A stretch of 64,000 bases of DNA from Ricordea florida (Eukaryota > Cnidaria > Anthozoa > Corallimorpharia > Ricordeidae), in the NCBI GenBank assembly GCA_949710005.1, contig OX453275.1, positions 13,581,651 through 13,645,650 of the forward strand, read 5' to 3'. How positions within the stretch are numbered: the stretch's first letter is position 1; every line of letters begins with the position of its first letter. The notes below the pieces were generated by a model. It was not told where the DNA came from and searched no databases. It saw nothing but the letters and a program-made list of their open reading frames with translations. Of this stretch, positions 24,939-63,331 are shown piece by piece. A program made the position numbers and the translations under genes.

Positions 24939-25040
24939 TTAACCCTTTAAGCCCTGATAGTGTCTTTAGAGATTTTACTCTGGCTAATGCCAGATGATTT
25001 TACTTGTTACTGGGAGACCCCTTGGGGCTTAAAGGGTTAA
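24939..25040. mobile_element. TTAACCCTTTAAGCCC MITE, copy 1
   Basis: A 102-bp palindromic element starting TTAACCCTTTAAGCCC and ending GGGGCTTAAAGGGTTAA, with the interior block GATTTTACTCTGGCTAATGC. The same family occurs at 49584-49685, 52567-52718 and 54547-54698. It is non-coding. Confidence 0.92.
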
Positions 25041-29356: not shown

Positions 29357-31649
29357 CTACTCAAAGTCAGAGCCATAGTCAGAATCATCACTATCTGAAT
29401 CTGGCAGCTCCAATGCCTTTGAAGTTTCATTTACTTCTTCTGCAATGTAAGGATCACACGTCTGCACACCAGCATCCACAGCTGTTGCAGCAGCTGCATT
29501 CTCATTCATTACTGAACTGACTGAACTGGCCACAACTGATGTGCTGACAAACTTGGGAGGACACTTTCTCCTTGGTTTGGCAGCTAACCAAGCAGCAACA
29601 GACAAATCAACAACCACTTCAAATTTCTTGCTCCCCACTTCAGGTCCATTAATTAGAATGTGAAGAAGGGAATTGAGCATGTCATTCTTCATTCTACTGC
29701 GAAGTCGTGTCTTCATCAGCTTCAAATAACTAGCAGCCCTTTCCGGCCATGCATTAGACACTGGGAGAGCAATTACTGCCTCTGCCACCTTCGCAACCAG
29801 GGGGAGGTTAAAGGGAACCAGATCTTTCATAAACAATAGCTTGTGGAGGCACCAGTCAGTTAGAGTGGTTGTAGGGTTGCTTCCAGTTCTTCCAGCAGGC
29901 TTTCTAACTTCCTCAGGCAGGTCCTTCTTCCATTTCACCAAGTCGTACTTGAATACCTGCCACTCATCCATCAGCTGCTTCTTGTCTCTTTGGTCATCCA
30001 AGTACTGTTCTGCTAGCAGTGTCACTGCTGCATTGCCATACTCAGCAAATCCTGGTTGGCCCCTTTCCGGAACTTGGGATGGATCAGAAATGCTGAAAGT
30101 GGATAGAAGTGGAAGGCCAGGAAATCTATTCTTTATGGTGCCTTTCAATGAATTTACATATTTCGTCAGGAAATTGTGGAGATACAGCTTGTCTCTGTCA
30201 GAAGCAGTAAGATCAGCTTGTTCCAATCTGCCTCCAGGTGATAGATCTCGCAGAAATTCTGTGACTGGTACACCTGTCGGGGCAATCTTGTCAAGGTCAT
30301 CAGTGCACTTCTGTATTGCTGGCTGAATGTGTGAGAAGGAAACCTTTCCTTGCTGGAACGTACAGCTGAGCTTGTTGAGAACGGGAAGTATGTGATGCAT
30401 GACTGTTACCACCCCAATGAATTTAACGTTGTGCATCTTTCCAAGGAGACCTGCTGCCTGAGCATCTTTCTTATCAAGTTGCTTAAGTGTAAGCATGTGG
30501 GGTAAGTAATCTCTATGTACACCCTCTACAGCCTGGCCAAGAGACAGCCATCTCGTACGAGTGGCTTTAGCAAGTCTACGCAGGCACCTATCTTTAGCCT
30601 CTTTAGAAGGCTCTTGCAGCTTTTTGAAATTCAGTTGGATTTTAAGATATGCTGCAAGCCGTTTGGGGGAATTTTCAAAAAATTTCCAGACCTGAAAAAC
30701 CCATCTCTCAACTTCCTGCACGTATGCAATGCCCTCACTTGTTTCACAGCAAGCAAGTGACAGTTTATCGCAGATGCAGTGGATACTGACAAGGTGTTTG
30801 TTCAATTCTTTGAGTCTTGTGGCCACACCACTGTTTGGGCCAGTCATCACTGATGCTCCATCACTGCAAAGGCCGTTGAGCTTCCCCATTGGCAAATCAC
30901 ATTGATTTAACTCTGCCACAAGAGTAGTCGTTATGGTTTCTGCATTTGCAGAATCTGATTCAGCAAGGAGATCGTTAGCGCTTAGAAACTTAATCTCTGT
31001 GCTTCCAGAAGTGCTGTTCCAAAACTGCACAAATGTGATTAGTTGCTCAGTAACAGCAATGTCTGTCACCTCATCAATTAGGAGACCATAAGACCCTGCT
31101 TTCTTTATTTCTTTGATGATCAAGTTCTTGATCACATCCCCAGTTGTCAAGAACATTTCTCTCACTGAAGCGGGAGATTTGTGGTCAAAATACTGCATTT
31201 TGTCTAATCCAACTGCCCGGAACAGATTCAGCAATGAAAAAAACTTGACGTTAGCAACCGCCTCCTTTGCCAACCAGTACAAGGCTGCAAAAGCATTGTA
31301 CAGAACATCATTGCATTGGTCTGGGCGGGTGGGGTGAGATCATTCATGGACTGAGGTGGCAGCCAGAGGCACCTTCTATATGCTGATGTCCAATCTCACC
31401 ATCTGGTTCCTCCGTAATTCAGCTACTAGCTGCAAGTGAGGAAAAGTGGCACCTTTACCTTTACCTCTACCCTTTACCTTTTACCTTAACCTTTCGAAAT
31501 GCAAATCACGTTCACTTGACATCGCTCATTAAAACTTGAACTGTAAAATGTAAAAACAACTGACCTTTTGATTTCTTTGGAACCACGGCGAAAAATTTAT
31601 CAAGGACACCTTGAGTATGAGCAGGTCTCTTTTTCGTGTTATCCATCAT
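29357..31649 (-). CDS. hAT-superfamily transposase-like gene (ZNF862-like), two-exon model
   Basis: The main minus-strand frame (31282-29357, open a little further to about 31324) encodes about 641 residues of an RNase H-fold hAT transposase. Near residue 70 is YGLLIDEVTDIAVTEQLITF (first acidic motif), near 135 LNGLCSDGASVMTG (second), then HCICDKLSLAC and TRTRWLSL. The C-terminal dimerisation region (about residues 510-580) contains LPLVAKVAEAVIALPVSNAW and ERAASYLKLMKTRLRSRMKN. The end is acidic (DSDSDDSDYGSDFE). A possible first exon lies at 31649-31565: it starts MMDNTKKRPAHTQGVLDKFF, contains the PIP-box-like QGVLDKFF, and ends AAAAG|GTCAGT. The link is not proven: the best acceptor I saw (TTTTCCTCACTTGCAG near 31440) leads to a stop in the required phase. 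No BED zinc finger is visible. It could be an active element, a decayed one, or a domesticated gene; the long intact frame favours recent activity or selection. Confidence 0.8.
31451..31495. repeat. TTTACC/CTTTACC simple repeat
   Basis: ACCTTTACCTTTACCTCTAC and similar hexamer steps, located in the presumed intron of the hAT gene. Confidence 0.8.
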
Positions 31650-47877: not shown

Positions 47878-49583
47878 TGGATCGTTATCTCAAGTTCAAC
47901 CAATTGACTGCGAACGTGAACTTGGCGGGAAAGGGCTATTGATGCCAAGACAGTAACAAAGAAATTCTAGAGAATTCTCGCGCGGGTTTTTGTTGGCAGG
48001 GTTCTAGGGTATGGTGGAGTATGGCGAAACGAAGAACGTCCCATCTTTTTTGTAGCCAAACAACGGCTCCTTATTGTAAACACTGCAGGAGTTAGGCATG
48101 ACTGTTGTGTCAGCGTAAAGAATTGATTGTTGTACAGTACTTGTTATGCAGTGTGGTAAGGAAAAAGGAGAAGAGGTTCAGTTACCTTGAACTGGTTCAT
48201 TGGCCTGAGATGTTTCCTTCTCAAAGGATTTGTTGATCTCTCAATGATATTTGCAACTGTTGGCTCTGTAAGACTTGGCTAGAAGTATGTCACTGTTTTA
48301 CTGTTCCCCAAACAAGGCTAGACAATGCCATTTTTGGACATCCAAGCACTTGGCTATCCTTCTATTGCTGCCAGTTCATATTTCTCAATAACGTGTGAAT
48401 AAAGGCAGTCACTTATCACTATGCTCGCATTGTAGTTATGTAAAACATTGGCGTAGTTGTTTGGTGAATTTTGCTGTGTTTCCCAATTGTTTGTTGGAAA
48501 GCTCCAGCGATTCTCCGCAGCTTCCTTGACTGACAAAGGATATGTGCACATTGCAACCAGGTGTACGATCACACAAAGTATGCCTGCTACGCTGATTTAG
48601 TCAGTGAATGTTTACGAGCCACCGACGTTTGAACTCTAATTTCCGCCTAGGCAGCTGAACATTGAGCAAGCTCACAGACTGATGCATTGATTTCTCTTGT
48701 AGCTAAAGGCACAGCAGTAGCAGTGTTGTTACTACAGAAAAAGTCTGTTAGTTAAACGCGAGTTAAGTTTAAATGAAGGTTTCACTGGACATGAAGTTTA
48801 AGTTCTTGGCATTGGATTATTTGACAAATTGTACTCACATCTTTTTGCGTGACGCATATTCAGTTCCTTCCGTGACCTAACTTTGTCGTAAAAACAGCTT
48901 CTGTTGAAAAGACGTTTGTATAAGGCCATGATTAGAAACTTCATTTAGCTGCGGTCAGGCAAGCGCGAAGGGCTGAAGCGAAGCTAAGACATTTGGAAAT
49001 TTTCGTCTTCTGTTCAGGTAGACATAATCTCAAGAATGCGTTCAGACAAGTCCCCTTCCACTGTTTTTATAAATATGTACAGTGAAGTCATCGATAAAAA
49101 TCACTCAACTGCGTCGGTTTCCTTCAGAATTGACTCCACTTAACACCGTTGCTTTGGCAAATTTGGGACACTGGGAAACCATGCTAACATCCTATGGCCC
49201 CAGTTATTTACAGACTCGCGTTAAGGCATCGTCTCTGTGGACTATATGAATTTGTTTTTGGCAATTTCTCTGCTTTTAATTTATTCTCATTTTGAAGCGA
49301 AGTATGTTGTGTTTTTAGTATGAGATTAGTATCTTGTAGAAAGGATATCCGGGTTTCTGGTATTACAGGGTTTTTTTACGAGGCCACAAAGTTACTCCTA
49401 GTCAACCGTTAATTGTAAATTCTATCATGAATTTGCAAAGCCGAGTTGCGATCTTGTGACGTAGACAGTCAAGTTGAAATGAATATAGAATGGGCAGAAA
49501 AGTAATGTAAGAAATTTTCCCGGATAGTAACTCCTTTGGAATCAAGGGTTTTCCCATTGCCCGTGTTTGTCAGTGTATTCCCC

Positions 49584-49685
49584 TTAACCCTTTAAGCCCC
49601 GAGGGGTCTCCCTGTGACGAGTAAAATCTTCTGGCGTTAGCCAGAATAAAATCTGTAAAGACACTATCGGGTCTTAAAGGGTTAA
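49584..49685. mobile_element. TTAACCCTTTAAGCCC MITE, copy 2
   Basis: A 102-bp element in the opposite internal orientation to copy 1: the GTAAAATCTTCTGGCGTTAG block is the reverse complement of that family's interior. Ends TTAACCCTTTAAGCCCC and TTAAAGGGTTAA. It lies just downstream of the last exon of the minus-strand gene. Confidence 0.92.
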
Positions 49686-49735
49686 GGAGATAGTTTTTTA
49701 CACATGATTCACTAAAAAACTTGGTGCTATTTATT

Positions 49736-52700
49736 TTATCCAGTGAAGTTCAGGGAAATTGGGTTTCCCCCAGAGCTGCTCTTTCGTTCTTGTTTTGATT
49801 TTTCTTTGTCATGCTTTGATGCAAGAGTGTTTTTCATGTGAATCATGCATTGTTGGAACGCATTAAGAATTTGATGCCTATGCACTTTCAAGGAAGTGAG
49901 TAAATTTATGATGTGTTGCCTGTGGGGTAATATTCGTTGTGATTCAACGAGGTCATGATGATCGTGAAGGTTGTGGGTGCCTTTTGTTAGGAAAGTAAAA
50001 TCTGGTGTGGGACCAACCAGTAAATTACTCAACAATGGAGCAAGCTATGCAGATCAGTCAGTTAATGCCAGTTTGGGGTAACATTGGTGACAGAAAGTAC
50101 ATCAGCCTTGCACTGACATAGTACAACACATTGCCGCAGATTAAAGATTAAATGGTTAAATACATACACTTATACATACCAAAACTTACGTTTAATTTTT
50201 ACATTGCACTTTCGACTGACCCACATGTAGTAATGGCTAATCTAGGGGGGGGGGGGGGGGGGCAGTCGTAATTCAGATGGGTTTCAAAGTAAATAAAGAA
50301 AATAAATAATTATGTAGTCCTGACAAACAAATTGTGCAGGTCTTTGATCTCTAACAAAAATGTTCATCAGGTGCTCCTTGTATCGAACGTGTGCCTGCTG
50401 TCGTCTTAATTCTCTCAGCGTGAGCCACTGCGATCTGCGAGTAGCAGCAGTACCAGCAGAAACAGCAAAGTCAAAATGTTGGCATTGTTCTCTGAGCTGG
50501 GTCTTTGGTTCTCCTGAGGAAAAAAAGACAGTCCGTCAGTTCCTTATTTACTAATTACGAGCGTGGTCTGAGTTTTTTGACAGAGAATGTTGACATTAAC
50601 AACAATTGCGACCTCGATAAGTTGTTCTTGCATATAATGACTGCGGCTGAACTCCTGTCATTAAACTGACTCTAAGAGGAGCAGCAGTGCAGCTCACTGG
50701 ACTTGGTAGAAGGGACTGCAACCAAAATAGTGGTAATTAAAGTTGTTAATCACCTGATTCATGTGTTCAAACAATTCTGAGCCAAAAACGCGTGGTGTTG
50801 TTAAATCCCTGCAAGAGATGTTTGATAAGTATACATTTTCATAATGATGAATATTCAGTATTACATAAAGGTAGATAGTTACAACGCTTTTGTTTACAGG
50901 CAGGCATGACAGGCAGTTCAGGCTGTCTGTTTGAATTTATAACTCATGTCCGAGTGGTTATTTGAATATTTGAAGACATTGTATGAGACTGCACAAAATA
51001 TTTTCCAAATGCTTTTTCTCCGAACGAAACTAGATAGAACCTACTTCTCTTATGTGTGTGTGTGTGCTATTATTTTGATGTTTTTCCGTTGATGGATACG
51101 ATTTAAGCCATTCTGTTTGCTGACACTATAAAATGATTCTAAAGGCTAGCAACTCCACATGGGCTAAATTAAGGGTCGTCTGCGTTCTAAACTCAATGAA
51201 TCTGTAAGTAGTGGCCATATTTTTCTGTCCCCACTTCGACTTTATTGAAATGATTGCTATTCATTGGAGAGAGGGCAGGAATTAGTTCTGATTTCTAGTA
51301 AATTGCGTCCTGTTTATACAGACGATTGTTTGGCTCACAATATTTCTCTCAAGCAGCAATTAAAACAATTTTATCCACACACTGATCAGTGCGGAAGACT
51401 TACACTGTGTCTTATTACAGTACTCTTCAATAACTTTGCAAGCTTCGTCAACAGCCAGATCAGTGAAAACTGTAGAACCGCATTGCAAAGTAAAACAAGC
51501 ACCTCATATCAGTACAGTACTGTTGAGTAGCTTGCCAGAGAATGATCACGCTTCCAGTTTGTGAACCCATGAAAACTTAAGAACCACACTGTATGAAAAC
51601 AAACATGACCGCAGTATGGTTCTGTTGAGTAGCTTTCCAGAGAATTTAAACACTGCATGATTTTGTCCCAAGATCAACAGCTAAGAGTAATATGATTGAT
51701 CATTAAACTAAAAGAAGTTTGGTATTATGCCTTACCTGTAAATATCATTGGGTTCTGTGCAAGTTAAACCAAAACCCTGGATGGTGTTATCTGCTGGATT
51801 TGGCTACAAGAAAAATATCAAAGCCACGTATTAGATTTGGAAAACGTCGTGTGATTATACTGCTGAGCGAAAACGTCTTCCCTTTTCTGTCCGTCATACA
51901 TTTGAGGGCTTGTGAGATCATGTGGAAATTATTTTAAGTATAGTTACCGTGTTATTAGGGATAATCAAGGTTTACAGCAACGAAATGTTTTTCTTTTTTC
52001 TGTGAAAGAAAATTACATCATGTGTTCACTCCCTATAATAAGCAACATGTTGCTTCATCTCACTGTATCAATGTACTATCAAGCCACTAGAGATGATGAG
52101 AATAGAGAAAAGTATCAACCCAAGAATACTAGATCTGAGCTAACTCTAAATATTCTGACCAAGATGGATGTTTATGGCATTCACTGACAAGAAATAATCC
52201 TGAAATTTGGAGTGAAAACGTTTGGGGAAAAGTGCAATCAAAACTGCATCCTGAGCCACGCCCTCGCTAGAACTAGCACCCATAGAGACATGTTATTGTC
52301 CTACCTCTAAGGCAAGTTGCTCGTCTAGGTCTGCGGCGTGATCGCCTGGTTCCTGTAGAAACTGCTGGCGTTCCTCATTATCACTTTCCCCTTCCTAGGA
52401 AAAACACGGATGTCTTGTTGTTATTGTAAGTGTTATCCTCTCTTTTCTCACAGAAACAAACCATTACAGAATTGAGTAGAAAAGCAGTGGAGAATGATTG
52501 AGTCAAATTCGATCGCTTTCATTGAATATGATATATCAAAGGATAAGGGCATGTGTGGGTTCCATCTTAACCCTTAAAGCCCCGGTAGTGTCTTAACAGA
52601 TTTTACTCTGGCTAACGCCAGAAGATTTTACTCTGGCTAACGCCAGAAGATTTTACTCTGGCTAACGCCAGACGATTTTACTCGTCTCAGGGAGACCCCT

Positions 52701-55644
52701 CGGGGCTTAAAGGGTTAAAAGAAGCTGATCGAAGAGATTAAGTAATGGGGGGAGTACATGTTACCATGTTTCCTTAATCTTTATGCATTTCCCCCCTTGT
52801 TCCCCAAATTCAATTAGAGGTTCCCTAGTTCTCTGAAAGTTATTTGAAATATCCCCTGTTCCCTGAAGTTATATGCTTCTGTTCCCTCGTTCCCTAAAAC
52901 TTGTGGTAGGGCCTCTAGTGATTGCTTACTCCATCAGAGGGCATCTCAACATCTGAGTTACCAGATGACGACCTCATTTCTGCATCGTCGTCTGTTGAGG
53001 AGTAATCTATCTCCATCGGTAAAGCTTCATTCTTTCTGAAAATGTTTCAAACGCATACGTTTTGTGAGAAATGGCGAAACAGCTTTTTTTCTTAGCTGTT
53101 TGAGTGACTATCCTAGAACACTATCTTTTCCAGGATTTTACCGATCAATAGATTGCCCTAGATTAGTGCCACGAGTGGGTTTGACCGATAACTTTTTTAA
53201 TTTTCTGTCCCCACTTCGACTTTATTGAAATGATTGCTATTCATTGGAGAGAGGGCAGGAATTAGTTCTGATTTCTAGTAAATTGCGTCCTGTTTATACA
53301 GACGATTGTTTGGCTCACAATATTTCTCTCAAGCAGCAATTAAAACAATTTTATCCACACACTGATCAGTGCGGAAGACTTACACTGTGTCTTATTACAG
53401 TACTCTTCAATAACTTTGCAAGCTTCGTCAACAGCCAGATCAGTGAAAACTGTAGAACCGCATTGCAAAGTAAAACAAGCACCTCATATCAGTACAGTAC
53501 TGTTGAGTAGCTTGCCAGAGAATGATCACGCTTCCAGTTTGTGAACCCATGAAAACTTAAGAACCACACTGTATGAAAACAAACATGACCGCAGTATGGT
53601 TCTGTTGAGTAGCTTTCCAGAGAATTTAAACACTGCATGATTTTGTCCCAAGATCAACAGCTAAGAGTAATATGATTGATCATTAAACTAAAAGAAGTTT
53701 GGTATTATGCCTTACCTGTAAATATCATTGGGTTCTGTGCAAGTTAAACCAAAACCCTGGATGGTGTTATCTGCTGGATTTGGCTACAAGAAAAATATCA
53801 AAGCCACGTATTAGATTTGGAAAACGTCGTGTGATTATACTGCTGAGCGAAAACGTCTTCCCTTTTCTGTCCGTCATACATTTGAGGGCTTGTGAGATCA
53901 TGTGGAAATTATTTTAAGTATAGTTACCGTGTTATTAGGGATAATCAAGGTTTACAGCAACGAAATGTTTTTCTTTTTTCTGTGAAAGAAAATTACATCA
54001 TGTGTTCACTCCCTATAATAAGCAACATGTTGCTTCATCTCACTGTATCAATGTACTATCAAGCCACTAGAGATGATGAGAATAGAGAAAAGTATCAACC
54101 CAAGAATACTAGATCTGAGCTAACTCTAAATATTCTGACCAAGATGGATGTTTATGGCATTCACTGACAAGAAATAATCCTGAAATTTGGAGTGAAAACG
54201 TTTGGGGAAAAGTGCAATCAAAACTGCATCCTGAGCCACGCCCTCGCTAGAACTAGCACCCATAGAGACATGTTATTGTCCTACCTCTAAGGCAAGTTGC
54301 TCGTCTAGGTCTGCGGCGTGATCGCCTGGTTCCTGTAGAAACTGCTGGCGTTCCTCATTATCACTTTCCCCTTCCTAGGAAAAACACGGATGTCTTGTTG
54401 TTATTGTAAGTGTTATCCTCTCTTTTCTCACAGAAACAAACCATTACAGAATTGAGTAGAAAAGCAGTGGAGAATGATTGAGTCAAATTCGATCGCTTTC
54501 ATTGAATATGATATATCAAAGGATAAGGGCATGTGTGGGTTCCATCTTAACCCTTAAAGCCCCGGTAGTGTCTTAACAGATTTTACTCTGGCTAACGCCA
54601 GAAGATTTTACTCTGGCTAACGCCAGAAGATTTTACTCTGGCTAACGCCAGACGATTTTACTCGTCTCAGGGAGACCCCTCGGGGCTTAAAGGGTTAAAA
54701 GAAGCTGATCGAAGAGATTAAGTAATGGGGGGAGTACATGTTACCATGTTTCCTTAATCTTTATGCATTTCCCCCCTTGTTCCCCAAATTCAATTAGAGG
54801 TTCCCTAGTTCTCTGAAAGTTATTTGAAATATCCCCTGTTCCCTGAAGTTATATGCTTCTGTTCCCTCGTTCCCTAAAACTTGTGGTAGGGCCTCTAGTG
54901 ATTGCTTACTCCATCAGAGGGCATCTCAACATCTGAGTTACCAGATGACGACCTCATTTCTGCATCGTCGTCTGTTGAGGAGTAATCTATCTCCATCGGT
55001 AAAGCTTCATTCTTTCTGAAAATGTTTCAAACGCATACGTTTTGTGAGAAATGGCGAAACAGCTTTTTTTCTTAGCTGTTTGAGTGACTATCCTAGAACA
55101 CTATCTTTTCCAGGATTTTACCGATCAATAGATTGCCCTAGATTAGTGCCACGAGTGGGTTTGACCGATAACTTTTTTAATCAGTAGAGTTAACAGATGA
55201 AAATTAGTGAAGATTGGACATGGAAATGAAATTCTCCTAAATAGGAGAATTAAAGAATTCCAGTTAGATCGGTTATCCTGGGAACAGCGAACCACAAACT
55301 GCGGTTCCAGGTTTATGGCCGGTATTAGTTTAACAGAGCGTTTCAACTTTGACCAAAAAGGAACTGTCCATTTGCAGCTTTTCACTTTGGTCCCACAGTC
55401 AAGCCATTTTAGCCTTTTACGCCGCGATGTTGGATTTCTCTAACTTTAAAGTTAGAAGAAGGTTGGCAATGTTGAACTCGCGGTCTTTCTACCTACAATT
55501 TTTCAGTTAACAGTTAATTACTTTTTGTATTTACATCGTCAAAATACGTGGGATAGCTAATTAAAAGATAAAAATAAAAACAACAACCTGCGAGCATCAT
55601 TTACAAATATGAAACATAAATTGGAAAACTCACGTTTCGTCCAT
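49736..55644 (-). CDS. Six-exon gene of unknown function (about 258 aa), exons partly duplicated
   Basis: Minus-strand model with matching phases: exon 1 55644-55634 (ATG GAC GAA AC, donor GTGAGT); exon 2 55015-54910; exon 3 54374-54285; exon 4 50715-50613; exon 5 50513-50356; exon 6 50044-49736 with stop. The second copies of exons 2 and 3, at 53035-52930 and 52394-52305, are identical. The N-terminus is acidic (MEIDYSSTDDDAEM, EGESDNEERQQFLQEPGDHA). The middle is basic (SQWLTLRELRRQQAHVRYKE). The end is basic (KHDKEKSKQERKSSSGG). No signal peptide or membrane segment. Exons 1-3 are well supported by splice sites and codon continuity. The exon 4 donor (CGAG|GTCGCA) and exon 5 donor (TTTTT|GTTAGA) are weak. 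Exon 5 read in another frame would instead encode a hydrophobic segment ANILTLLFLLVLLLLAD and a stop, giving an alternative tail-anchored short product. I recognise no family. Confidence 0.55.
50245..50262. repeat. 18-bp poly-G run
   Basis: Uninterrupted G-run in the presumed last intron of the minus-strand gene; G-quadruplex-prone and error-prone in assembly. Confidence 0.95.
52305..52394 (-). CDS. Duplicate exon 3 (30 codons, phase 0-0)
   Basis: Acceptor CCTAG|GAAGGGG and donor TTAGAG|GTAGGA. It reads EGESDNEERQQFLQEPGDHA and on to DLDEQLALE. Symmetrical phase means inclusion after the other copy keeps the frame and would repeat an acidic 30-residue block. Confidence 0.6.
52567..52718. mobile_element. 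TTAACCC MITE, copy 3, with expanded interior
   Basis: 152 bp rather than 102: the interior 25-bp unit GATTTTACTCTGGCTAACGC (plus CAGAA) is present three times plus a partial fourth. Ends TTAACCCTTAAAGCCCC and GGGGCTTAAAGGGTTAA. Intronic in the minus-strand gene. Confidence 0.93.
52930..53035 (-). CDS. Duplicate exon 2 (106 nt)
   Basis: Acceptor TTTTCAG|AAAGAATG and donor GATGGA|GTAAGC. It reads KNEALPMEIDYSSTDDDAEM and on to VEMPSDG only when preceded by a 2-nt phase, as supplied by exon 1. After exon 3 (phase 0) it would read AAA GAA TGA, an immediate stop. This copy must therefore be skipped in a productive transcript, or it acts as a poison exon. Confidence 0.55.
53201..55180. repeat. 1,980-bp tandem duplication, unit 2
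   Basis: Second copy of 51221-53200 at an offset of exactly 1,980 bp, followed at 55181 by unique sequence. It contains exon 2 (54910-55015), exon 3 (54285-54374), the exon-like segment (53716-53783) and a MITE copy (54547-54698). It is nearest to exon 1, so its exons are the ones most simply used. Confidence 0.97.
54547..54698. mobile_element. TTAACCC MITE, copy 4 (duplicate of copy 3)
   Basis: Identical to 52567-52718 through the tandem duplication, not an independent insertion. Confidence 0.93.
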
Positions 55645-55900
55645 TGTCTTTCTCGGCCGGATTGTTTGGTCGATCGGCCCCTCGATAGACTGTAAGACTG
55701 AAGTCTTGAAGGAGTTTGTTTTTGTGCCTTCTTGAGAAGCTTTCCGGCTTTAAAGCTTGGAATTAACAAGGGCTCCTTTGCCCACAATCCTCGGGTCTTG
55801 CGTCACAATGTTTTTAAAAAAAAACTTCAGCTAAGTACTCCGTGTATGTGACTCAAGAGTGACGCATTTAATGTGCCAATCTGCAACAAGAAGAGGCCGA
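55645..55900 (-). promoter_or_regulatory. Presumed 5' UTR and promoter of the minus-strand gene
   Basis: Sequence upstream of the ATG at 55644 (minus). It is open in another frame (MWAKEPLL-like, 55787-55557), but that frame does not fit exon 2's phase, so it is treated as UTR. No TATA box is evident. A plus-strand ATGGCGGACACCGGC at 56100 could mark a divergent transcript but stops after 16 codons. Confidence 0.3.
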
Positions 55901-58060
55901 ATTGTGTAGAGTGAAGAGTCTGTTAAATTTGTAGACTGTTTTGAAAAAGCGGGCTGAACGCCGGTTGTATCTAATTTCCGGAACATTGTTCAAGTATTGC
56001 TACCTTCCGGGCGCTTACACTGTTTATATCAGAGCCGTAGCGTTACGCGGAGGTGAACGAAGAAAACATTTACTCGGCCCAGTAACAGCAGTTTTCAAAA
56101 TGGCGGACACCGGCAATGCGACTTTTCACTCGCCTTCGTCATCAAATTAAGAGGTGATTGAAATCAATATTTATGATAGGACCCCCAAAATTCTGGTCTG
56201 GACCCACAAATATTTGTCCAAGGGGTCTACTTCTACCTTCCCGGAGGCTTACACTGTAAATATTACCCTATGTCACAGGGTTCTCATTACAAGGCGGTAA
56301 CCGGTAAAATTTACCTCTTGTAAGAGCACTTTTTAACGCCTGGAAACGCTCAGAAGTCTGCGTATTAACCAAATGGTTTACCAGTTTGAAAATGTCCCTT
56401 ATCTGTTGTGCTGAAAACCAGGGAGAACCCTGTATGTTCCGTAAGACGGAAAACGGAGCAGAATTAAACTTGTTTGTTTTGCTACGCGGGGTCACGATAA
56501 ACGTAGTAAAAATCTATCACCAATGAAACCCTAGGTCGCATTCACTAAATATAAATACAAGTACAAATATAAATACAACATTTTACGAGATAGAAGAAAA
56601 TGATATCGGGTTAAAATCATGCCATCAGTAACAGTAGGGAATGAGGTCTCAGTGTCTTGCATTCTTAGAAGATTGAGTTTGTTCAGTATGTTACAACACA
56701 CTCCCCGGCACACACGCTCAATCTTTATATTGTACTGATTATGTCGCGTGAGAGCCATGTTGTTGATTCCTTGCTTGTGCTTTTATGGTTACTTATGTTG
56801 CATCAGAAGTCACCTTTTCTCGCTTGGTCTTTGTGCTTTAAAGAGAGTCCTCTTTGTACAGGTTATTAACGATTTCGTATTGTTTACCATCGCTTATCTC
56901 GGAACAAGCCCTTTCGTAGTACTAACACTTAGTGTATTCTAAGATTTATCAAGCATTTCCGGCTGTCACGTGAAAGAAAAAGGACTCATTCTCAATGCTC
57001 GCCTTATAACGTGTTAAGTTTTTCTGTTTTCATATTTTCGAAACATTACAAGCGCAAAGAAAGTTGTGCGACTTGGACTTAATACTAAGTTAGTACCAAC
57101 AATAAGCTTATCATAATTATCGTGTGAGCTCACGCATCGTTAAATTGCTACTTCTGCTCCAAAGTTTTACCTTGTGTTCCCTCGGCAGTATGTGTTCGTT
57201 GTATTTTCAGACATCAGGCACTGTCCAGTAGCTGTAGCGCATAAAGATGCAGTGAAGACGGCATGACAACTAGTTTTGCCAGATGGCACTTTCTTCGTTT
57301 GGTTACATGGCATCATCTTTCACCGAATATCACCGATGTGTTAGATTGACCAAGTCGAAATGTTTGACTAGCAAGAAGAAATCTTACTACCCAAACACCA
57401 GTTAAGACTTGATGGTCTGTCTGGATGTTCTGATGACGTTTACCAAAATGTGTTTCCTTGAATAACGAAATCATTTTTTTCTTCAGATAGACTGCATTAA
57501 GTGCGCCACACTGTCCAAGCGATCCTATTCCTTTGCTCAATGCACAGCATACCTACCGTTCAGCATCACTCTCGATCGATGGTTTACCGAATCAGTACTC
57601 CTGTAACGTTTCCGAAGTAAAACCAGCGTTTTACTACTTTTGTGATATTAAATATGCGCTCATATTGAAATTCCTGAAACAAGAAAACAATACCACTGAC
57701 CTTGTGATCTCGCTCATTCTTTAATACGAAGTTATCATTTGCATTATTATGATTGGTTTGTGTAAGTGTAATCTGTCTTTTCGCTGCCTGTTGCCATTGT
57801 CAACTATTGTTGTTACCATTCTCTGTTTTTTGGACCATGTCAGCTCTGTCTGTTTTTGGTTTCTCCCCCTCAAGGCATCAAGTAATTTGCCATTGTTTCC
57901 TGCAGCAAACATGATATTACATTTTCACTTTTAATCTTATTATTTCACATCCTATAAGGTTTTGGCCCTAAATATCTCAGTTCTTATTTAAGGATGGCAT
58001 TTCTAATAGCAGCCAATATTTTCACCGATTGTAAAAGTTTCTCATATAGAAACTTGTTAT
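55901..58060. other. Spacer, no confident gene
   Basis: Contains AAAATGGCGGACACCGGC at about 56097, a start-like context ending after 16 codons. A short ATAAATACAAGTACAAATAT microsatellite-like tract lies at 56550-56578. No domain-bearing frame. Confidence 0.35.
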
Positions 58061-61801: not shown

Positions 61802-62230
61802 TCCGAAAACTCCTGTTTACCTAGATGATGAAAATGTTGTTATTGTTCACTTTCCCAGGCACTATACTCACAAATGTGAATGTTTGGGCTGTCGTTTGTT
61901 CGTTTTTGATTTGTTTTACCTCATGAATGATGTCTTTTTATAATCCAGTATTCTTGTTAGGAAGTGTATTGCTACACCCAAAAACAAACCACTCGGAGAA
62001 AAATTTATTTGAAGTGAAAACATTGAAATAACTGCAAAAAGTAAATTTAAAACATTCCTCGTTATTCAAAGGTGTATTTCTTTTAATATTCTAGAGAAAA
62101 AAGTCTGAAGGGGAAACTAAGTTGCATTTATAGTGCAGGATATACTATTTATTCTTTTGCGCGTGTTAATGCGTCATAAAGACAATGTTATACTTTTACA
62201 TTCAATGCGGCTGAAAACAAAACATTGGAA

Positions 62231-63331
62231 ATGGCAAAAAGGAGATCAAAAATAACACCAGAAGCCAAAGCTCTGGCGGTACTGTTAAGAAAGGCAACTT
62301 CGAAGTCTTTAAGCTACCGTCAGATCGCCAATAGGTGCAAAATTTCTAAGTCTGAAGTGCAACGCTTATGTACAAATAACAGCAAGTTGAAGTCCAGAGA
62401 TCGACCGTCGAAGAATAAAGGAGGGAGGCCGAGAAAGATAGATCAACGCGGAATCAGAGCGTTAATACGGACTATTAACAAGGTACGAAAGAAGAATGTT
62501 AATTTCACCGTGAAAACTTTGGCAGAGGCATCTGGAATAAGTCATCAGGCAAGCAGAAGGACTTTCTCGCGTTATTTAAACGAGCAGGGCTTTAGATTTC
62601 TTCAAACGCGAAAGAAAGGACTATTGAGTGCGAGAGATCGTTTGGTAAGATTACAATACGCCCGAAGAATGAAGAAAAAATTGAAGCAATTACCCGAGTT
62701 CTGGAGCAAATATGTGGTGTTTTACCTAGATGGGGTGTCCTTTATTTACAAAACTAATCCATTAAGTACAGCAACCCAAGCCAAAGCTCGCGTGTGGCGA
62801 AAACGATCAGAGGGACTGACTGTAACTGCCAAAGGATCGAAAGATCTTGCAGGAGGAAAAAGACTGCATGTTTTAGTAGCTATAAGTTATCGAAAAGGTG
62901 TAATTCTCCGTGAACCTTATGATACAGTGAACGGCAACTTTTTTGCTTCTTTTGTGAGAGAGCAATTTCCGAGGTGTTTTGTAAGGGCTGGGAGATCCAG
63001 AGGCCGACTATTCGTGATGGATAATGATCCATCGCAAGTGTCCAAAGCCGCAAAGTTGGCGTTAAAAGATATCAGTGCTGAACTACATCAAATTCCTGCT
63101 CGTAGCCCTGACTTAAATCCAATTGAGAATGTATTCCATATGGTGAGAAGGATGTTAGACTACGAGGCAATTCGTCTAGAAGTAGTTTATTAGTCCTTTG
63201 AAGGGTTCAAGAGCAGAGTGATGCGCTGTTTTGATTCCGTATCTACTGAACTTATAGATCGTACAATAAGGAGCATGCCAAAGCGAATCGGTCAAATCAT
63301 TGCATCCCAAGGTGCAAGGATTAAGTATTAA
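62231..63331 (+). pseudogene. Tc1/mariner transposase with one premature stop
   Basis: Cut-and-paste transposase. The N-terminus has a helix-turn-helix (LSYRQIANRCKISKSEVQRL, about residues 25-50), then GGRPRK, the GRPR-type linker that contacts the TIR, and a second HTH (TVKTLAEASGISHQASRRTF). The catalytic D34E triad is present: D in FYLDGVSF, D in VMDNDPSQ and E in SPDLNPIENVF, with 34 residues between the last two. Codon TAG at 63191-63193 interrupts the frame just after the core, yet the same frame reads on to SFEGFKSRVMRCFDSVSTEL and a natural stop at 63329-63331, the expected C-terminus. Start chosen at ATG 62231 (MAKRRSKITPEAK). TIRs of its own were not found. Confidence 0.9.

Follow-up and report, generated by a model that had tools for sequence, protein, structure and literature searches.

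A 1,980-bp head-to-tail duplication doubles three exons of a predicted minus-strand gene without any difference in the Ricordea florida assembly

The window analysed here is a 64-kb stretch of the Ricordea florida assembly (C4:13581651-13645650, from a total of 537,793,885 bases in 48 contigs), and it contains no N. It holds a predicted gene of six minus-strand exons, within which a piece carrying three of the six exons is doubled without any difference. Base-by-base comparison of 51221-53200 with 53201-55180 gave 0 differences over 1,980 positions. This bears out an earlier sequence-only reading, which had described an exact 1,980-bp head-to-tail duplication; the introns and the MITE that it placed inside the duplication are indeed present in each of the identical units. 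The match at a period of 1980 runs over 1,981 bases (51221-53201 on the first copy), which leaves the boundary uncertain by a single base (T). We refer to the minus-strand unit that would be transcribed first (53201-55180) as copy a and to the one transcribed second (51221-53200) as copy b. Predicted exons 1 and 5 flank the pair, which has the head-to-tail arrangement of an intragenic tandem duplication. When the window was compared with itself, the duplication was the sole long near-exact match among the 42 listed non-self matches of at least 60 bp, the runners-up being 377 bp at 71% and 292 bp at 91%. A whole-genome search (537.8 Mb, 48 contigs) found the unit at 100% identity in the two window places, corresponding to C4:13632871-13634850 for copy b and C4:13634851-13636830 for copy a, and nowhere else among the matches listed.

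The same search revealed six further loci with one diverged unit each, some of them incomplete. Four are on C4, from 13804616 (L009, 94% identity) and at 13524347 (93%), 9970719 (81%) and 14186798 (80%); the others are on C5 at 23697274 (92%) and on C9 at 6626112 (88%). Minor matches to the unit comprised 484 bases at 77% in two places and 151 bases at 89% in one, and the remaining rows mostly covered the MITE alone. The whole gene neighbourhood (47-60 kb of the window) belongs to a segmental duplication; at least six other copies exist, on C4 (4/6), C5 and C9, and these are 80-94% identical over the unit, with at least one (L013) broken. Elsewhere on C4, a tandem array with a step of ~72 bp extends over 1.7 kb (L015:4899-6575, C4:13700899-13702575) and adjoins a 151-bp fragment resembling intron 3 of the unit.

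We aligned ten-kb stretches around the six loci (L009-L014) to 47-60 kb of the window; aligned cover was shortest for L013 (~48-53 kb) and L011 (49-55.7 kb). A single alignment spanned the left outer breakpoint (51220/51221) in five of the six loci, and the right outer breakpoint (55180/55181) was spanned in four (L009, L010, L011 and L012). The inner join at 53200/53201, where the microhomology is 1 bp (T), was crossed in 0/6. Every paralog carries a single unit, in some cases incomplete, as expected of loci related to an intragenic tandem duplication. The outer breakpoints are thus continuous in paralogs and the inner join never is, which indicates that one unit is the ancestral state and that the only new adjacency is 53200/53201. 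In L009, the unit and its two flanks adjoin base to base (C4:13804615/13804616 and 13806461/13806462), and the letters match those of the window at both outer breakpoints. The join therefore appears clean, with nothing lost or added.

The predicted exons, all on the minus strand, were followed through seven aligned family rows. The coding part of exon 1 (55634-55644) consists of 11 nt that begin with ATG and leave two codon bases over; its donor is in the top 1.7% of window GTs. The ATG is kept in three of seven rows (the focal copy, L009 and L014); L010, L011 and L012 open exon 2 with ATG. Exon 2 is 106 nt long (54910-55015 in copy a and 52930-53035 in copy b) and has its AG in 5/7 rows, its GT in 7/7 and its phase in 6/7; the acceptor AG is missing in L013 and L014, and L013 is broken in this exon. 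Exon 3 is 90 nt long (54285-54374 and 52305-52394), with AG, GT and phase kept in 7/7 rows. Exon 4, of 68 nt (53716-53783 and 51736-51803), has a donor in the top 0.1% of window GTs, AG and GT in 7/7 rows and a length of 2 mod 3 in all seven; in the focal copy it is open solely in the phase left by exon 3. For each of these three exons, copy b is identical to copy a. Outside the unit lie exon 5 (50754-50808, 55 nt), with AG and GT kept and an open, phase-restoring frame in 7/7 rows, and exon 6 (50415-50513), which encodes a hydrophobic C-terminus, has an acceptor in the top 0.2% of AGs and ends with the stop TGA at 50415-50417. The exon 6 frame is open over the hydrophobic stretch in 7/7 rows, although L010 and L012 have a displaced stop. 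The sequence-only reading had assigned two coding exons to each unit. Its exon 2 of 106 nt and exon 3 of 90 nt are confirmed, but it overlooked exon 4, which brings the number of predicted coding exons per unit to three.

It is the paralogs, and not the splice signals alone, that settle this predicted gene model. Judged by its splice signals alone, the chain of exons did not stand out from shuffled sequence (7/30 shuffles reached the same level), and the count of exon-like objects was not significant (18 in the window versus 5-17 in 20 shuffles). Codon scores, from a test trained on transposon-like ORFs and applied to exons chosen by eye, ranked exons 2 and 3 in the top 0.4% and exon 4 in the top 11% of open stretches; power was low, with 40% of held-out transposase pieces above the 95% line. 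Across the family, exon 3 varies from 63 to 90 nt and exon 4 from 53 to 74 nt, with phase kept in 7/7 rows for both. Relative to the focal copy, exon indels were multiples of three in 9/9 cases in five paralogs (14/15 when the broken L013 is included), as against 20/107 indels in introns 2-5, in counts that are not independent and include cases shared by descent more than once. dN/dS ranged from 0.26 to 0.91 (10 pairs among five copies), and constraint on the gene appears weak to moderate. Considering this weak constraint, the lost exon 2 signals, the displaced stops and the shifting start codon, the gene may matter little.

The gene model is less certain in its 3′ half. The gap between exon 4 and exon 6 contains 112 candidate exons; among the 40 listed, four (50886-50835, 50808-50790, 50808-50754 and 50612-50582) are open, with both sites kept and the frame restored in 7/7 rows. 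We took 50808-50754 as exon 5 because it alone among them has a donor on the strong-donor list. Other candidates were rejected. Placed after exon 4, a 66-nt exon at 51404-51469 runs into a stop codon, and its sites and length are not kept in paralogs. A terminal exon from the acceptor at 50434 (frame RSQWLTL...) is interrupted by stop codons in three paralogs (L009, L010 and L012). Splicing exon 3 directly to exon 6 gives the right final frame but omits exon 4. That the duplicated block reads in frame (from 4a to 2b), as we describe below, is independent of the 3′ half.

With a single unit, the predicted product has 142 residues. Its N-terminal part is acidic, and close to the C-terminus it has a hydrophobic stretch (ILTLLFLLVLLLL) followed by ADRSGSR. 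The best 19-residue Kyte-Doolittle mean of this stretch is 1.94, and the product would resemble a small tail-anchored protein. The stretch is weakened in two paralogs, by a proline in L011 and an arginine in L012. Searches of Pfam, NCBIfam and PDB sequences with the gene product gave nothing above cut-off, only sub-threshold matches (best PDB match, E 2.6). No relatives of exons 1-4 were found in viral contigs, no relative was found in prokaryote contigs with the rejected acceptor-50434 model as query, and Rfam gave no match over 49500-57500.

What the duplication would do to this product depends on codon phase. Exons 2, 3 and 4 together measure 264 nt (106 + 90 + 68), and exon 4 leaves two codon bases, as exon 1 does. 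Both copies in order therefore read in frame: the junction of exon 4a with exon 2b is AG|A AAG AAT, and conceptual splicing of the predicted exons in the order 2-3-4-2-3-4 gives an in-frame product of 230 residues. The duplication would thus reach from intron 1 to intron 4 and copy exons 2, 3 and 4 together with their introns and the MITE; since the predicted codon phase is the same on either side of the block, the added 264 nt would turn the 142-residue protein into one of 230. In this inferred transcript, the longer form would carry in tandem an acidic segment of 88 residues (24 acidic, 3 basic). The new intron between exons 4a and 2b measures 680 nt, and the others 240-927 nt. We would expect default splicing to join both units in frame. 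The sequence-only reading had also predicted that exon 3 can be included twice in frame, which holds as arithmetic (the 3a-3b form has 172 residues), and that adding the second exon 2 after exon 3 creates a stop. The latter also holds as arithmetic, a 3a-2b splice reading AAA GAA TGA with a stop after 71 residues, but as a prediction for the locus it is not supported: the stop arises only if exon 4a is skipped, and the ordinary exon order stays in frame to residue 230.

The MITE is present in both units, at 52567-52718 in copy b and 54547-54698 in the other, with TTAA ends and inverted 18-nt arms. It is missing from the paralogs, and at the empty site in L009 the alignments overlap by 4 bp. 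Together with the single-unit paralogs, this points to an order of events in which the paralog split was followed by MITE insertion and then by tandem duplication. Further members of the MITE family lie at 49584-49685 and 24939-25040, and the genome contains many more; their TTAA ends and 18-nt arms (TTAACCCTTAAAGCCCCG) suggest a piggyBac-type element. The copy in the unit contains ~3.4 internal 25-bp repeats with a CTGGCTAACGCCAG palindrome, and no match to the MITE core was found in viral contigs. A dispersed repeat of ~197 bp occupies 56031-56227, and 33/49 rows of a right-flank search were copies of it at 90-95% identity on many contigs. Inside the unit, a 34-nt repeat (51510-51543 and 51612-51645, 88% alike and 102 bp apart) is perhaps the trace of an older local duplication. 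Farther away in the window, long open frames match a hAT-type dimerisation region (29360-31339, minus strand; PF05699) and a DDE_3 endonuclease (62180-63190, plus strand; PF13358).

We searched the 300-bp neighbourhoods of the two breakpoints for shared homology and found nothing beyond chance: the longest common word was 7 nt, compared with a commonest value of 8 for control pairs, and 1 bp was shared at the join. The homologous sequence at both breakpoints that characterizes non-allelic homologous recombination was thus not found there. Shared sequence at the chance level makes recombination between repeats less likely and favours a joining of the units without breakpoint homology, either by end joining or by a replication template switch. 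With 0/1,980 differences, the upper 95% bound on divergence is ~0.15% (3/1980). The introns of the focal copy differ by 5.4% from those of L009 and by 4.6% from those of L010, the two nearest paralogs. Set against the L009 value, the absence of differences would place the duplication in the last ~3% of the time since the paralog split, barring gene conversion. This supports the suggestion, made in the sequence-only reading, of a very recent event within the minus-strand gene.

Our preferred reading is a real, very recent 1,980-bp tandem duplication within one gene, made without flanking homology, to which we assign a probability of about 0.68; we infer that the duplication exists in the animal's DNA, beyond the assembly. 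An assembly error, in which a contig end or haplotype block was placed twice head to tail to give a false exon gain, would also produce exact identity and a blunt join, as expected from an unmerged contig overlap. False exon gains, and homotype errors without haplotype-specific k-mers, are described for vertebrate assemblies in one study (PMC9516828). Two alleles misjoined in tandem should differ, however, and here the differences at allelic sites that mark heterotype false duplications number 0/1,980. The chance of such identity is ~0.003 at 0.3% heterozygosity and ~0.14 at 0.1%; heterozygosity in two coral genomes is reported as 2.3 and 1.14% (PMC10236652), values that may not be those of the present animal. 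Moreover, the window contains no N, and 48 contigs for 537.8 Mb suggest long reads, which can span 4 kb. This contiguity and absence of N make an assembly error less likely, and we consider it improbable. A copy-number polymorphism, with one unit on one haplotype, two on the other and the longer form in the assembly, would be compatible with a real duplication and with all other observations, and zero divergence is what an event young enough to segregate would leave. The matches listed for the 48 contigs include no near-identical single-unit allele, though a primary assembly would not hold one. We see such a polymorphism as a realistic possibility, at somewhat less than even odds.

Tandem copies can convert each other, and an older duplication might have been held identical in this way. 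Conversion would have had to extend to the last base at both ends and to include the introns and the MITE, in a gene whose introns stand ~5% away from those of its two nearest paralogs; we find this very hard to believe. A different concern is that the duplication disables the gene, through joining of exon 3a to exon 2b or some other break of the frame. Merely 12 of the 64 ordered exon subsets retain the normal C-terminus, and the 3a-2b product ends early, as described above. That splice, however, would require skipping of exon 4a in spite of its strong donor, and complete inclusion of both units is in frame, so that disabling seems quite improbable to us. Returning to a real and recent duplication, we can extend it to a more doubtful proposal, which we offer tentatively: a polymorphism in protein length may be segregating at this locus and have been caught just as it arose. 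The three-exon cassette, phase-neutral and coding for most of the acidic part, would be gaining copies in one member of a locally duplicated, possibly lineage-specific family of tail-anchored proteins, so that a functional protein of 230 residues would exist alongside the one of 142.

If real, the locus offers an exon duplication without measurable divergence, with a known ancestral state and join, and with a sharp prediction for RNA and protein. With newborn cases of this kind, one can test the frequency with which splicing simply takes up a duplicated exon block, as opposed to the block being skipped or destroyed. Should the locus prove to be an assembly error, it would be a clear instance of a false exon gain that checks of the reading frame do not catch.

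Genes with internal tandem duplications are a familiar finding, and human disease examples of intragenic multi-exon tandem duplication have been reported. The present case resembles this class in that complete internal exons and their flanking introns are copied head to tail, with breakpoints in introns and microhomology of at most 1 bp at the join; it differs in that the block is phase-neutral (264 nt) and lies in an unnamed gene without a known phenotype. Like mutually exclusive tandem exons, it sets homologous exons next to one another within a gene, but here three exons are involved, they are identical, no exclusive choice is indicated, and the phases permit joint inclusion of the doubled exons. 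According to one survey, most tandem exon duplications that take part in splicing are of ancient origin, with more than 90% of human ones having bony-fish orthologues (PMC9741552). Coral genomes show pervasive local gene duplication according to two reports (PMC10236652; PMC12314368), one of which suggests that gene families in two corals grew by non-allelic homologous recombination (PMC12314368). The present gene likewise belongs to a locally duplicated family; those duplications, however, concern genes and families, whereas this one is internal and has no repeats at its ends. False exon gains in assemblies share with it an extra exon copy within a gene, but the false duplications of earlier assemblies were mostly heterotype with one named exception (PMC9516828), whereas the present copies show no differences. 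In flies, one study reports that chimeric structures arising by tandem duplication led to changes in expression (PMC5460883). Together, these comparisons place the Ricordea locus within a kind of event that is already known, and what makes it notable is that the duplication is apparently newborn, mapped to the base and phase-neutral.
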